Below are positions 43,281-47,883 of a stretch of 64,000 nt of DNA, one piece after another. The stretch's first letter is position 1; the number at the start of each line of letters is the position of its first letter. Position numbers and translations under genes: made by a program. The DNA is taken from NCBI RefSeq assembly GCF_900105925.1, contig NZ_LT629791.1:5302001-5366000 (forward strand). Reading direction: 5' to 3'. Source of the DNA: Jiangella alkaliphila (GTDB lineage Bacteria; Actinomycetota; Actinomycetes; Jiangellales; Jiangellaceae). The notes beneath the pieces were generated by a model. The model ran no database searches. It had not been told where the DNA came from and saw nothing but the letters and a program-made list of their open reading frames with translations.

Positions 43281-43998
43281 GCCACAGGCCCTCGTCACCG
43301 GCGGCGCGTCCGGTATCGGCGCGGCCACGTGCGCCGCCCTGCTGGCCGACGGCTGGATGGTGACCAGCCTCGACCTGCGCCCGTCGCCCCTGACCGGGGT
43401 CCGCTCCGTGATCGCCGACGTCACCGACGAGGCCGGGCTGCGCGCCGCCGTCGCGTCGGCCGGCCCCTTGCGGGCGCTGGTCTGCTCGGCCGGGATCTCC
43501 GGCAGCTCCGCCGGCGACGGCCCGGTCGAGGCGGCCGACGCGGCCGCCTTCGACGCCGTCCTGGCGGTGAACCTGCGCGGCGCGTTCCTGGCCGCGGGGG
43601 CCGCCTGGGCGGCGCTGACCGCGCAACCAGGCGCGGCGATCGTGACGGTGTCGAGCGTGCTCGGCCTCACCGGCGGCGGCGGGCCGTTCCGCAGCCACGC
43701 CTACGTGGCGGCCAAGGGCGGCCTGGTGTCGCTGACGAAGGCGCTGGCCGCGGCCGGTGCGGCCAGCGGACTGCGGGCCAACTGCGTCGCGCCCGGGCTG
43801 GTGCGCACGCCGCTGGCCCGCCGGGTCAGCGAGGACCCGGCGCTGGCGGAGTGGGTGGCGGCCAAGCAACCGCTGCTCGGCGACCTGCTCGAGCCCGACG
43901 ACGTCGGCGCGCTGATCGCCTTCCTCTGCGGCCCCGCCGCCCGCGCCGTCACCGGCCAGACCATCGCCGTCGACGCCGGCTGGCAACTGGACGGGTGA
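43273..43998 (+). CDS. Short-chain dehydrogenase/reductase
   Basis: 241 residues from a GTG at 43273, which overlaps the kinase stop by 8 nt. An ATG at 43198 would add 25 low-complexity residues inside the kinase gene, and I prefer the shorter form. TGGASGIGAATCA binds NAD(P), CSAGISGS is the NAG-like motif, and the catalytic pair is in SHAYVAAKGG with VSSVLG before it. It probably oxidises or reduces the sugar or its alcohol. Last gene of the operon. Confidence 0.85.
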   Translation: MAEPQALVTGGASGIGAATCAALLADGWMVTSLDLRPSPLTGVRSVIADVTDEAGLRAAVASAGPLRALVCSAGISGSSAGDGPVEAADAAAFDAVLAVNLRGAFLAAGAAWAALTAQPGAAIVTVSSVLGLTGGGGPFRSHAYVAAKGGLVSLTKALAAAGAASGLRANCVAPGLVRTPLARRVSEDPALAEWVAAKQPLLGDLLEPDDVGALIAFLCGPAARAVTGQTIAVDAGWQLDG

Positions 43999-44508
43999 TC
44001 ACGCCTGCCCAGGAACGTAAGGGATCAGGCCCAGCCGTGCTGCCTCCTCTTGGAGGTCCTGTGGCAAGGTCCGAGCGTCGACGACGAAACCGTTGCTCAG
44101 CTGGACCAGCCAGGCCATGGGGTTCTTCTCGATCATGTCGTGTCTCGTCCACTGCGGATCCATCACCCCGATCCGGAGCAGGTCCATGATCAGACGTCCC
44201 TTGTTGCCCATGGTCGCCTGCTTCACGCCGAACAGCCGGGCCAGTTCGTCGGTGCGCAGGTGCGGACGCTGGGCGGGGTCGGACAGGAAGTTCACCCGTC
44301 CGATCGTGTACACCACGCCCGCCGCCCAGATCCGCCGATCGCCGCGCGCCAGCGGCGACGGCCGCTTCCGCGCGAGGGTCTCGACGAGGCGGCGACTCAG
44401 CTGCGCATAATCGTCGTCAAGATGATCAGCGCAGAACGCGTCCGTGATCTCGGAGACCTCACTGACGACCGGCCGCAGCGCGATCGGCAGGGTTGTCGGT
44501 GTCGTCAC
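43999..44508 (-). CDS. DUF6398-domain protein
   Basis: 169 residues from a GTG. VVSEVSEITDAFCADHLDDDY, KRPSPLARGDRRIWAAGVVY and VKQATMGNKGRLIMDLLRI are the conserved segments of DUF6398, a domain of unknown function that is often found with SEC-C motifs or alone. It is cytoplasmic and convergent with the SDR gene, with no gap between their stops. Confidence 0.75.
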   Translation of the reverse strand: MTTPTTLPIALRPVVSEVSEITDAFCADHLDDDYAQLSRRLVETLARKRPSPLARGDRRIWAAGVVYTIGRVNFLSDPAQRPHLRTDELARLFGVKQATMGNKGRLIMDLLRIGVMDPQWTRHDMIEKNPMAWLVQLSNGFVVDARTLPQDLQEEAARLGLIPYVPGQA

Positions 44509-44556
44509 GCACCGCGACGATACCCACTGCCGTGCCAGGCCGCACGACCGCGTCCG

Positions 44557-46311
44557 TCAGAATGGCGGGATCTCCGCCGGGTCGGCGGCGCCGGGCAGCG
44601 TGGGCATGACCGGCGGAGGCCGGTTCGTGTAGGTATGCCTGAGCGGACTCGTCCACACCGTGAGCTCCGGCGCAGATCGGGTGAGCCCCCAGCCTCCGTC
44701 GTGCTTGAGCCGGTGATCGTGGCGGCAACACGAGCCGAGATTCGCCTCGTCCGTCGGCCCGCCGGCTGCGTGGTCGAGAGCATGGTCCTGGTCGCCGCGC
44801 GTGGCCGGAGCCCGGCAGGCCGGGTGGGTGCAGTACCGGTCGCGGATCTGCACCGTCCGTCGCAGCCGGGATCGCGCGCGACGCCGGAGCGGGTCGTCCG
44901 GCGGGACGTCGTCGGCTTCGCCGGTGGCGTGCTGTGCGGCGACATCGGCGAGCACGGCGTCCCAGCCGCGCTCGAGGCCGACCGCGATGAGCTCAGGCAG
45001 TTCGCCGGCCTTCAGCTGCAGCTCGACGATCGCGGAACGGCCGCGGCCGGGCACGCCTGCCAGCGTCGGCGCTCCGCTGCCGGCAGGGGTCGGTCGGAGG
45101 CGCGTGACGCCGCCGTCGATCGGGCGGCCGTCGTGATCGCAGATCACCCAGCGCCACTCCGCACCGCGCATCGACGCGAGGAGGGGCCGGGCCTGTGATG
45201 CCGGAACGAAGTCCCAGCCGACGATCTCGGCGGGATGCTCGTTCAACCCGAGCATGGCGGCGACCTCGACGCGCAGCTCCCGAACGCACCACCCGCTCGG
45301 CGCAGCGCCGGCAGCGGCCGGGCCACCCGGTCCAGGGGTCATAGTCGTGTCCGTCGTGCCCGCTGTCACCGCCCCATCGGCTGCTCGCCGGTCCAGCGCG
45401 GTCTCAGCCGCCGGGCGGCCACCGTCGCCGCGATCGCCGTCACAGGAGTGGCCGCCAGCGGTGGTGCCCTGCTCCCGCTCCGCCGAGTCGACGACGGGGT
45501 GGGCGAGGACGTGGTCGATGATCTGGTTCTCGGCGAGCGCGTCGAAGGTGCCGTCGAGCATGCCGAGATAGAGGTCGGCGCGGATGTGGTCGATCGGCCG
45601 GGCGTCACCGGCGTGTTTGCAGGCCCGTGCCAGCGTGTCGATGCGGTCGCACGCCGCGGCGGCCCGATCGATCGGCAGGTCCAGCCCGTGCAGGTTCGCG
45701 GTGCCGTCGTCGTTGCGCGATCCCTCGACTCGGCGGCCCTTGACCGCGGCCCGGTAACGGCGCTCGGCCCAGCCGGGGTCGATCGCGATCGCCGCCCGCT
45801 TGATCCGGTCGATCAGCACACCGACCAGCAACCCGGCCGCGACCGGCAGCAGGGCGGCGATCACCTGAGCGGCGTGGTCGTCGTCCAGTCCGATGGTCCA
45901 GTGGACGAACGCACGTGCCCGCGGCTCGTCCAGGACGCCGGCCTCCATCGCCTCACCCAGCATCGGCAGCCGCTCGTGCACCTGCCAGGCGAACTCGAAC
46001 GTGCTGTCGGCGCGGCGGCGCGACCACATCAGCGCCGCCCTGGCCTCCTCAGCGGCGAACTCGCCAGGGCTCTCCAGCCGCGACACACCCTCCGGAGTAT
46101 GCGGCCGGCGCATCCCAGTCTCCAGCAGCGCCCGCAGGAACACCCCCTGCGCATGACACACCTGCCGATACGCCGCGGCCATCACGTCCACCGTGTCGTG
46201 CCCACTGACCCGCCGCACCGGGATCTCCGCCAGCACCGCACTCAGCTCGGCACCCGGCCGCATCGTCGCCAGCCCGGCGGGGACCGCTTCGAGGGTGTTC
46301 ACAGGCGACAC
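44557..46311 (-). CDS. DUF222/HNH endonuclease protein, 13E12 type
   Basis: 584 residues from a GTG with AAGGG 9 nt upstream. The N-terminal DUF222 region (about 40-230) includes ALMWSRRRADSTFEFAWQVHERLPML and ERRYRAAVKGRRVEG; the C-terminal HNH motif has RDRYCTHPACRAP, DHALDHAAGG and NLGSCCRHDHRLKHDGGW. This multi-copy family (REP13E12 in mycobacteria) is of uncertain function and in mycobacteria contains LexA-bound copies. Here a SOS-type box lies inside its promoter. Confidence 0.88.
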   Translation of the reverse strand: MSPVNTLEAVPAGLATMRPGAELSAVLAEIPVRRVSGHDTVDVMAAAYRQVCHAQGVFLRALLETGMRRPHTPEGVSRLESPGEFAAEEARAALMWSRRRADSTFEFAWQVHERLPMLGEAMEAGVLDEPRARAFVHWTIGLDDDHAAQVIAALLPVAAGLLVGVLIDRIKRAAIAIDPGWAERRYRAAVKGRRVEGSRNDDGTANLHGLDLPIDRAAAACDRIDTLARACKHAGDARPIDHIRADLYLGMLDGTFDALAENQIIDHVLAHPVVDSAEREQGTTAGGHSCDGDRGDGGRPAAETALDRRAADGAVTAGTTDTTMTPGPGGPAAAGAAPSGWCVRELRVEVAAMLGLNEHPAEIVGWDFVPASQARPLLASMRGAEWRWVICDHDGRPIDGGVTRLRPTPAGSGAPTLAGVPGRGRSAIVELQLKAGELPELIAVGLERGWDAVLADVAAQHATGEADDVPPDDPLRRRARSRLRRTVQIRDRYCTHPACRAPATRGDQDHALDHAAGGPTDEANLGSCCRHDHRLKHDGGWGLTRSAPELTVWTSPLRHTYTNRPPPVMPTLPGAADPAEIPPF

Positions 46312-46380
46312 GGCAGCGGACCCTTCTCAAGCGCAGGCGACGATCTAGAGGCGCCTCAACACGTTCAACGGCACTCCATC

Positions 46381-46409
46381 ATTATATTTCGAACATGTAT
46401 TCGCCACAA
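46381..46409 (-). promoter_or_regulatory. SOS-type promoter of the DUF222/HNH gene
   Basis: On the minus strand TTGTGG (46409-46404), 17-nt spacer, perfect TATAAT (46386-46381). The spacer holds GCGAATACATGTTCGA (46404-46389), which matches the actinobacterial LexA box TCGAAC-N4-GTTCGA with one perfect half. LexA bound there would block polymerase until DNA damage. Confidence 0.7.
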
Positions 46410-46456
46410 CTCGAAACCGAGCCGGACGCTGGATCTGCGCGCAGCAGGGCGACCGG

Positions 46457-47320
46457 TCACTTCGACTGGGGCAGCTTGACCGAGCCGCGACGAGGGACGG
46501 CGGCGGAGGGCGGGGGCACGACCGGGCCGATGTCGCCGTCAGGGGCGGTGTCGAGGTCGACGATGAGCGGAGCGTGGTCGCTGGGGCCGGTGCCCTTGCG
46601 GGCGTGGCGGTCGACCCAGGCGGCGGCGACCCGGTCGGCGACCGGGGCGCTGGCGAGTATGAGGTCGATGCGCATGCCGAGGTCCTTGTGGAACATGCCG
46701 GCGCGGTAGTCCCAGTACGTGAACACCCGCTGCGTCGGCCACCGGTCGCGGACAACGTCGTGGAGGCCGGCGGACTGGAGGCCGGCCAGGGCGGCCCGCT
46801 CGGGCTCGGTGACGTGGGTCTGCCCGGCGTAGGCGTCGGGGTCGAACACGTCGGCGCCGGCGGGGGCGATGTTCATGTCGCCGCACACCATGACGGCGTC
46901 GGGGCCGGCCACGACCTGGGCGCGCAGCGCCGCCAGCCACTCCAGCTTGTACGCGTAGTGCTCGGAGTCGGGCTCGCGGCCGTTGGGCACGTAGACGGAG
47001 TGCACCCGCACTCCCCCGCACGTGGCGGAGACGGCGCGGGCCTCCTGATGCGGGAAGCCCGGCCCGCCCGGCAGCCCCAGCACGACGTCGTCGAGGCCGA
47101 CCTTGGAGAACAGCGCGACGCCGTTCCAGCGCGCCTCACCGTGGTAGGCCGCCTGGTAGCCGCGCTTCTCCAGCTCGGCGCCGAGCAGTTCCTCGACGAG
47201 GTCGTCGGCGAGCTTGGTCTCCTGCAGGCAGACGACATCGGGTTGGCGCTGGTCGAGCCAGGGCAACAGCCGCGGCATGCGCTGCTTGACGGAGTTGACG
47301 TTCCACGTGGCGACTCTCAC
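46457..47320 (-). CDS. xth: Exodeoxyribonuclease III
   Basis: 287 residues from a GTG at 47320 (VRVATWNVNSVKQRMPRLL); a GTG ten codons earlier is possible but less typical. EEP-fold motifs: CLQETKLAD (metal Glu), WNGVALFSK, VMVCGDMNIAPAGADV, HKDLGMRIDLILAS and GPSDHAPLIVDL. Known members act at abasic sites and 3' blocks in base-excision repair. It lies upstream (in transcription order) of the SOS-controlled HNH gene but has its own promoter region. Confidence 0.9.
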   Translation of the reverse strand: MRVATWNVNSVKQRMPRLLPWLDQRQPDVVCLQETKLADDLVEELLGAELEKRGYQAAYHGEARWNGVALFSKVGLDDVVLGLPGGPGFPHQEARAVSATCGGVRVHSVYVPNGREPDSEHYAYKLEWLAALRAQVVAGPDAVMVCGDMNIAPAGADVFDPDAYAGQTHVTEPERAALAGLQSAGLHDVVRDRWPTQRVFTYWDYRAGMFHKDLGMRIDLILASAPVADRVAAAWVDRHARKGTGPSDHAPLIVDLDTAPDGDIGPVVPPPSAAVPRRGSVKLPQSK

Positions 47321-47361
47321 CGCACCTACCGTAGCGGCGTCCACCGACACCCACGGACCAC

Positions 47362-47883
47362 GTGGCCGACAAGGGATCCCGGATCACCGGGCTCGCTCCG
47401 GGCCGGGCTCCAGGACGCCTCACGCCACGTCTGCTGGTGTCAGCGTTGCTGACCTTCACGACCTGGGCCGCCGTGACGCTGCTCGGCTCGGCGTCGCTGT
47501 GCAGCGCGTCGTCCGCCGACTGCTCCGCGGGCGTCGGCACGGGGTGGCTCGTCTGTGGCGTACTCGTCGTCGGCTACCTGACTCTCCACGTCACGATCGA
47601 CCTGGCCGAACACGCGCGAGAGCGCTTCGGGCAGCGCCGAGCGGCCTGGTTGACCTGCCGGGCGCCGCTACTCGCCGGCATCACCACGGGTGCGGGTGCC
47701 GGGGCTGCCCTCGCGCTCGGCCCCGACCGAGCCGAAGGCGTGCGCCAGGCGCTCGACGGCGTGCCCGGCACCGAAGCGGCCTTCATCTCGGCGGTCGTCG
47801 CGGTGCTGGCCGCCCTCTGGGGCCTGACCGTGGCGGCGCGGCTGCCGTCGGCGCTGCGCCAGCGCTATACCGCGTCCGAATAG
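47362..47883 (+). CDS. Membrane protein, unknown function
   Basis: 173 residues from a GTG. About four hydrophobic segments (LLVSALLTFTTWAAVTLLG, GWLVCGVLVVGYLTLHVTI, and two near the C-terminus), with a short loop CSASSADCSAG that may hold a disulfide. No ribosome site is obvious and I cannot name a family. It is divergent from xth. Confidence 0.5.
   Translation: MADKGSRITGLAPGRAPGRLTPRLLVSALLTFTTWAAVTLLGSASLCSASSADCSAGVGTGWLVCGVLVVGYLTLHVTIDLAEHARERFGQRRAAWLTCRAPLLAGITTGAGAGAALALGPDRAEGVRQALDGVPGTEAAFISAVVAVLAALWGLTVAARLPSALRQRYTASE

Follow-up and report, generated by a model that had tools for sequence, protein, structure and literature searches.

A LexA-type box in the promoter of a DUF222-HNH gene of Jiangella alkaliphila and an SSB-like ending on its putative nuclease

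Introduction

The window studied here (the whole 64-kb stretch of Jiangella alkaliphila DNA that was analyzed) holds a 13E12-type gene, encoding a DUF222 domain and an HNH site, with a LexA-type SOS box lying between its promoter hexamers. This arrangement provokes a question: is the gene summoned by DNA damage and, if so, what would its product do there?

LexA control of mycobacterial 13E12 genes is reportedly owed to Davis 2002 and to the ChIP-seq of Smollett, the sources that are cited for it. That some 13E12/HNH/DUF222 genes of mycobacteria are controlled by LexA, as the preliminary description of this DNA had stated, is in print (PMC5005354, PMC4181829). The underlying switch, repression by LexA and its RecA-triggered cleavage, is established (PMC4181829), and mitomycin C induces five putative HNH endonucleases in M. 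tuberculosis, an effect that depends on RecA (PMC8151990). REP13E12, HNH and DUF222 have been grouped together, the repeat lying near insertion sequences (PMC10589994).

The promoter and its SOS box

The gene and the elements ahead of it are as follows.

44557..46311, minus strand: DUF222-HNH (13E12-type) gene, 584 aa, with a GTG start according to the ORF finder
46404..46409, minus strand: -35 hexamer TTGTGG, read directly
46389..46404, minus strand: LexA-type SOS box GCGAATACATGTTCGA, a 16-mer, from direct reading, a mismatch scan and its position in relatives
46381..46386, minus strand: -10 hexamer TATAAT, read directly

The promoter (46381-46409, minus strand) consists of TTGTGG, a 17-nt spacer and TATAAT, and stands 77 nt ahead of the DUF222-HNH gene, whose transcription is expected to start near 46374. 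The box GCGAATACATGTTCGA occupies the greater part of the spacer, shares one base, the last, with the -35 hexamer, and departs from TCGAAC-N4-GTTCGA at two positions. The preliminary description had credited it with one perfect half; indeed, GTTCGA is perfect, and both mismatches fall in the other half, where GCGAAT stands for TCGAAC. Its term “near-consensus promoter” fits only in part: the -10 hexamer is perfect, but the -35 hexamer agrees with TTGACA in TTG only and is weak, and a sigma-70 scan of 43900-47500 (at least 4/6 per hexamer) listed no promoter.

Might the box be a chance match, the gene lying outside LexA control? Two mismatches alone are not rare, as the window holds seven sites with at most two (51 with up to three mismatches, where shuffles gave 30.3, sd 5.8), and a LexA-like site with at most two mismatches occurs in 7/53 non-DUF222 control genes (SSB, xthA and WYL; 830 nt each). 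The core CGAAYNNNNRTTCG, however, is rare: it has 21 sites in the 7,716,500 bases of this single-contig genome, against one for the backward control. These sites include those ahead of recA, dinB and ruvC, names that we presume from translations rather than from a family search. The genome also has a lexA gene, near the start of whose reading frame lie boxes of one, one and two mismatches; the two-mismatch box of the window thus falls within the range of the genome’s own sites. Together with the conserved register described below, the rare core led us to reject the chance reading, which we regard as very improbable.

Conservation of the box among relatives

The strongest evidence for the putative LexA site is its conserved position among relatives. 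A box with at most two mismatches is present in 31/34 same-family relatives, although at least two of those 31 (L080 and L063) have it at a great distance upstream, probably by chance. Among clade relatives whose box has at most two mismatches, the register of -35, box and -10, judged by eye, is the same in 21/22, a set that leaves out the window gene’s own two copies, L080, and L081 and L088 (three mismatches), and that includes nine near-copies from one genome. In 21/22, TTG begins 5 or 6 nt ahead of the box, and in 21/22 TANNNT begins 2 nt past it, L083 being the lone exception for both. Direct reading, the rare core and this register agree with the earlier placement of an SOS box inside the promoter spacer of the HNH gene. 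With a box at the promoter, its retention in relatives and lexA in the genome, the SOS switch on the window gene looks real, as judged from sequence.

Such control can evidently be lost: in L021, the paralogue nearest to the window gene (78% identical), the promoter persists, whereas one half of the box has decayed.

The leaders of these genes show features of their own. Spacer-type relatives carry GC-rich, inverted-repeat-like leaders, possibly structured, and an alike 5' UTR leader (approximately CCGTCACCGGGAGCGG...GTGGGTTCC) follows just past the box in L011, L014, L006, L068, L070 and L119.

Two damage promoters among the DUF222 genes of the genome

Merging 29 DUF222 matches, and excluding a C-terminal fragment (L027, near L014), gave 20 DUF222 genes in the window’s genome. 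The preliminary description had proposed a survey of these genes for the same promoter. As such it is not shared: ten genes are of the LexA type and ten carry another motif, TTGTCRGTG-N8-TANNNT (L001, L002, L004, L005, L007, L008, L012, L013, L015 and L018). In mycobacteria, tTGTCRgtg-8 nt-TannnT is the consensus of LexA-independent damage promoters (PMC5656591), which are activated by PafBC (PMC6789036), itself activated by ssDNA (PMC11804915).

The ten LexA-type genes differ in the register and quality of the box. The spacer-type box is confined to the window gene and L021; in L006, L010, L011, L014, L016 and L017 a box of two or three mismatches abuts the -10 hexamer (TAAGAT in five), while L003 and L020 have boxes of two mismatches and one, respectively. 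Four of the boxes (L010, L016, L017 and L021) have three mismatches and lie at the homologous position. Several copies in the genome (L011, L014, L017, L018 and L020) look truncated or frameshifted.

In its ten genes the PafBC motif is perfect in eight and has one mismatch in two, whereas 40 shuffled -35 motifs gave no site with at most one mismatch on the same 20 genes. Among spacers of 5-12 only 8 yielded perfect matches. Because the shuffled controls reach 8/20 genes here and 14/89 in the wider sample at two mismatches, PafBC motifs were counted at one mismatch or fewer only. Altogether, 16/20 genes have either a LexA box with at most two mismatches or a PafBC motif with at most one; the other four are those with three-mismatch boxes. 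The window gene has no PafBC site at two mismatches or fewer, its best match having five.

Perfect PafBC motifs number 19 genome-wide (backward control, 0). Eight face DUF222 genes, and others are directed at genes whose sequences look like recA and uvrB. Adjacent WYL-domain genes lie approximately 5 and 6 kb beyond a Pup ligase gene and are candidates for pafB and pafC. Elsewhere in the genome (L041/L249; G000:C1:4328960-4329008), a gene that resembles the SAV_6107-type HEPN family has both a PafBC motif and a LexA box without mismatches, approximately 33 nt apart from start to start.

Regulator switching across the phylum

Are these two promoter types peculiar to one genome? DUF222 was found in 45/119 sampled genomes of the phylum, several of which carry many copies of DUF222-HNH genes. 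Our sample of 89 genes comprised 29 best-per-genome loci and 60 regions hand-picked among the matches listed, with several genes each from G024, G125, G147, G163 and G167. In this sample, the LexA box was present in 14, 48 and 66 genes with at most zero, one and two mismatches, respectively, as compared to means of 0, 0.10 and 2.0 (maxima 0, 2 and 8) for 59 permuted palindromes on the same genes. The PafBC motif was perfect in 13/89 and had at most one mismatch in 18/89 (shuffled maxima, 0 and 1). One further shuffled -35 nearly equalled the real motif, with maxima of 21 perfect and 44 with at most one mismatch against 22 and 47, but it probably differs from that motif only in the place of the degenerate letter; we relied instead on the 59 permuted LexA motifs and 40 shuffled PafBC motifs.

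Pooling all genes, after removal of duplicates and of relatives with fewer than 150 bases upstream, left 171, of which 146 have a LexA or PafBC site and 25 have neither. Genes of G033 and G055, most of them first taken to be without a LexA box, had seemed to be free of damage control. This idea was abandoned, as 15/20 carry a PafBC motif, in every case with exactly one mismatch and none perfect. The xthA genes were likewise dropped as negative controls after they proved to carry PafBC motifs themselves: among the 53 control genes (SSB, xthA and WYL, 830 nt each), PafBC-like sites with at most one mismatch occur in ten, seven of them xthA and three SSB.

In some genes of family f4 the two elements meet, the box overlapping the PafBC spacer and -10 (L175 and L177) or beginning at the last base of the -10 (L173); on this evidence, a composite promoter is predicted. 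A quick tree of 106 genes, in which many long branches were flagged, requires at least 18 changes among LexA, PafBC and both, whereas shuffled assignments averaged 37.6; the regulator thus follows descent, yet has switched repeatedly. The tree holds 106 of the 113 genes outside the “other classes” (seven were too short), the 12 without a promoter class being uncounted, and in some genes assigned to both regulators, L002 for one, the LexA match is probably fortuitous.

The box overlaps a possible ATG start in several sampled genes (for example, L115-L117, L169 and L173). The right half ATGTTCGA of such boxes holds the likely start codon, so that MF(E/D) is encoded within the box itself. In several PafBC-type genes of the window’s genome, only this right half ATGTTCGA is left.

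Does a common box type make these genes ordinary repair genes? A mismatch-repair-like system of M. tuberculosis, comprising 13E12 HNH proteins, RuvABC and DnaE2-ImuAB, has been proposed (PMC4181829), and in the window’s genome DUF222-HNH genes share their box type with ruvC, dinB and recA. The proposal rests on co-expression and annotation only, and the patchy presence of DUF222 across the phylum, with large differences in copy number, fits poorly with core repair. An ordinary repair nuclease is accordingly an unlikely description of the window gene.

Neighboring genes and the question of mobility

The genes on either side are listed here.

46457..47350 as listed, minus strand: exonuclease III (xthA), its coding start more likely the GTG at 47320
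47328..47350, minus strand: PafBC (RecA-NDp) type promoter of xthA, GTGTCGGTG-N8-TACGGT, one mismatch
43999..44508, minus strand: DUF6398 gene, just downstream of the DUF222-HNH gene, a possible operon partner

As had been noted at the outset, the upstream neighbor, encoded on the same strand, is exonuclease III (46457-47350). Its PafBC-type promoter, present with at most one mismatch in 7/12 genomes of the genus, makes it probable that xthA is damage-induced too, via another regulator; from their promoters, xthA and the DUF222-HNH gene would thus probably answer the same stress by two routes. A DUF222-HNH gene lies within 1.5 kb of xthA only in G000 and G007 of the 12 genus genomes, the window’s own included. 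The DNA of the DUF6398 start region is conserved behind the G007 copy as well. By eye, G002 and G005 (L121 and L129) have small toxin-antitoxin-like genes between xthA and an SDR gene. The xthA-SDR interval is therefore a variable spot, with DUF222-HNH and DUF6398 in the window versus toxin-antitoxin-like genes in congeners.

The presence of the gene beside xthA in only two of 12 genomes speaks for a mobile or selfish element, as do the 20 DUF222 genes of the genome and the standing of 13E12 as a known repeated sequence of mycobacteria (PMC10589994). On such an account, the DUF222-HNH gene and its damage promoter would form a mobile unit, SOS would time its spread as with integrases and homing endonucleases, and the SSB-like C-terminal tip (see below) and HNH cleavage would help the unit to be copied into breaks. 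A further argument comes from genome G019, in which a unit of 3.0-3.2 kb is shared among loci (L089-L099 and L058) with unrelated flanks. It starts at the -35 hexamer CTTGC (nine left ends) and stops at, or a few bases from, the stop codon (eight right ends); five loci have both ends, and seven are cut by contig or locus ends. However, no empty site was found with the one flank tested, which is present in four sister genomes: its homology stops approximately 175 nt short of the unit, beside which the opposite flank did not turn up. By eye, the ends of the G019 units show no evident target-site duplication or terminal repeat, and similar genes within differing flanks could also result from gene conversion among old paralogues. 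We consider mobility less likely than not, though worth keeping in view.

The protein and its HNH site

Two parts of the protein can be delimited by family and by conserved residues.

45448..46137, minus strand: DUF222 domain, residues 59-288, mostly helical, from a Pfam profile match
44713..44832, minus strand: HNH site, residues 494-533 (C494, C499, H510, N524 and H533), from residue conservation and structure matches

The DUF222 match (27.5 bits) is above its cut-off of 24.4, and the Pfam HNH match (16.4 bits) is below its cut-off of 21.4. Over 29 sequences, H510 and H533 are invariant, and N524, C494 and C499 are kept in at least 90%. The DUF222 score and the conserved HNH site justify calling this a 13E12-type HNH gene. 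Searches of the window protein against NCBIfam gave no match, a sequence search of solved structures gave two chance matches only, and no relative of the protein turned up in viral contigs.

An AlphaFold model built with 29 sequences (mean pLDDT 78, pTM 0.68) begins with an N-terminal half made of helices, followed by an insert of low confidence (275-340) and a middle of mixed structure; the HNH part comes next, and the end is floppy, residues 580-584 having pLDDT values below 50. Foldseek found nothing below E 0.001 in the pdb. With VIA-align, residues ~21-182 matched Noc, ParB and Spo0J at Z values of 7.9, 7.5, 7.5, 7.1 and 5.6, which are under the trust level and fall where helical models get by chance; the weak likeness of residues ~50-180 to the DNA-binding part of ParB/Noc is suggestive only.

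Would such a nuclease destroy its own cell? Upon strong or lasting damage, phage attack included, a suicide or defense nuclease would be induced to shred DNA and cause cell death. There is a precedent in MSMEG_1275 of M. smegmatis, an HNH nuclease whose overexpression leads to cleavage of the chromosome and to cell death; its H258, N272 (essential) and N281 (partly needed) are spaced by 14 and 9, just as H510, N524 and H533 are here (PMC9416677). Yet MSMEG_1275 may represent a different type of HNH protein, as the main text of that paper names neither DUF222 nor 13E12, and it alone among five overexpressed HNH genes inhibited growth strongly (PMC9416677). Moreover, twenty damage-induced suicide genes per genome would be costly. 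We judge a suicidal role to be improbable.

An SSB-like C-terminal tip

The end of the protein adds one further feature.

44560..44577, minus strand: C-terminal tip AEIPPF, residues 579-584, an SSB-like sequence

The best SSB match of the window’s genome ends in ADEPPF. Relatives of the window protein end in DDIPPF, DDEIPPF, DTPPF, DEPPF and the like, after variable stretches. The best-match SSBs of 12 same-class genomes all end in (D/E)EPPF, and those of six other-class genomes are mixed. Such endings are uncommon elsewhere: among 222 non-DUF222 ORFs, only eight end in PF, all of them SSBs from loci fetched as SSB, in a count whose ORF filter retained only 47 DUF222 ORFs (seven with PF ends).

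Among closed DUF222 genes, PF ends occur in 42/158: 6/20 in the window’s genome, 22/25 in the same family, 3/19 in f13, 10/37 in the rest of the class and 1/57 in other classes. Does the tip go with LexA control? In the window’s genome, none of the ten PafBC-type genes ends in PF as read (L018 is interrupted), and in f13 it marks all three of the genes whose LexA box is perfect and none of the 15 PafBC-type genes. The f4 genes break this pattern both ways (for example, L174 and L132). When relatedness was allowed for, the association was not significant (seven independent pairs, median p 0.5), and it is only a trend. Being absent from PafBC-type paralogues and from nearly all members in other classes, the tip is not needed by every member. 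In the window gene, the SSB-like ending suggests where the nuclease may be sent. The SSB tail is bound by PriA, RecQ and the like. RecO binds it as well (PMC7913777).

Discussion

We favor, if only slightly, a reading in which the window gene encodes a damage-induced HNH nuclease that borrows the docking tip of SSB. In an undamaged cell, LexA bound in the promoter spacer would keep RNA polymerase off the DNA. Upon damage, RecA filaments would prompt LexA to cleave itself, turning the gene on. The product would combine a mostly helical N-terminal part, perhaps DNA-binding, with an HNH site like those of McrA and IscB; it would also have disordered segments and end in an acidic PPF tip. Through that tip it may dock on proteins that bind the SSB tail (RecO, PriA, RecQ and others) and so be carried to stalled forks or single-stranded DNA, which it would cut. 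What the sequences show is the promoter and box with their conservation, the conserved HNH residues and the tip; from these we infer LexA binding, induction, docking and cutting. The preliminary description had taken SOS induction to point to damage response, mobility or defense, all of them candidate roles only.

More broadly, DUF222-HNH proteins may be nucleases called up by damage that form a large class in actinobacteria; their genes would mostly be wired to LexA, PafBC or both with repeated switching, and a subset would bear an SSB tip that lets the nuclease compete for, or ride on, the SSB network at damaged forks; we offer this wider view tentatively, placing it just short of an even chance. 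The evidence for damage control by two regulators and for SSB-like ends in a subset provides a direct handle on the function of 13E12/DUF222-HNH genes. LexA control of some 13E12 genes is known, and the PafBC share and the SSB-like tip are apparently new: in the literature searched, we found no report of PafBC control of DUF222 genes and none of an SSB-like tip on DUF222-HNH proteins, although other papers or supplementary gene tables may hold one of either.

Comparison with known systems

The HNH part resembles those of IscB (Z 7.2 and 6.7), TagI (6.7), EcoKMcrA (6.5) and ScoMcrA (5.6), IscB and McrA-type nucleases being the closest known kinds, with alignments that span approximately 63-86 residues, mostly of the HNH part; a Gme HNH structure was also among the matches. 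Unlike IscB, the window family has no guide-RNA-like family beside it, Rfam giving, on nine loci, a single match far below its threshold. With SSB the protein shares a variable linker that leads into acidic residues and a terminal PPF; here, however, the tip is carried by an HNH protein, in which Pfam scans found no SSB family match.

The regulation has counterparts in mycobacteria. The consensus of the mycobacterial PafBC regulon recurs perfectly at 8/20 paralogues and with one mismatch at xthA, although the window DUF222-HNH gene itself is without such a site. The tip and the PafBC promoters go unmentioned in the portions of the M. tuberculosis 13E12 accounts on which we draw. Rv0515, Rv1702c, Rv3074 and Rv3776 of M. 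tuberculosis, as described there, belong to the same 13E12 family and are under LexA control, the mode of regulation predicted for the window gene.
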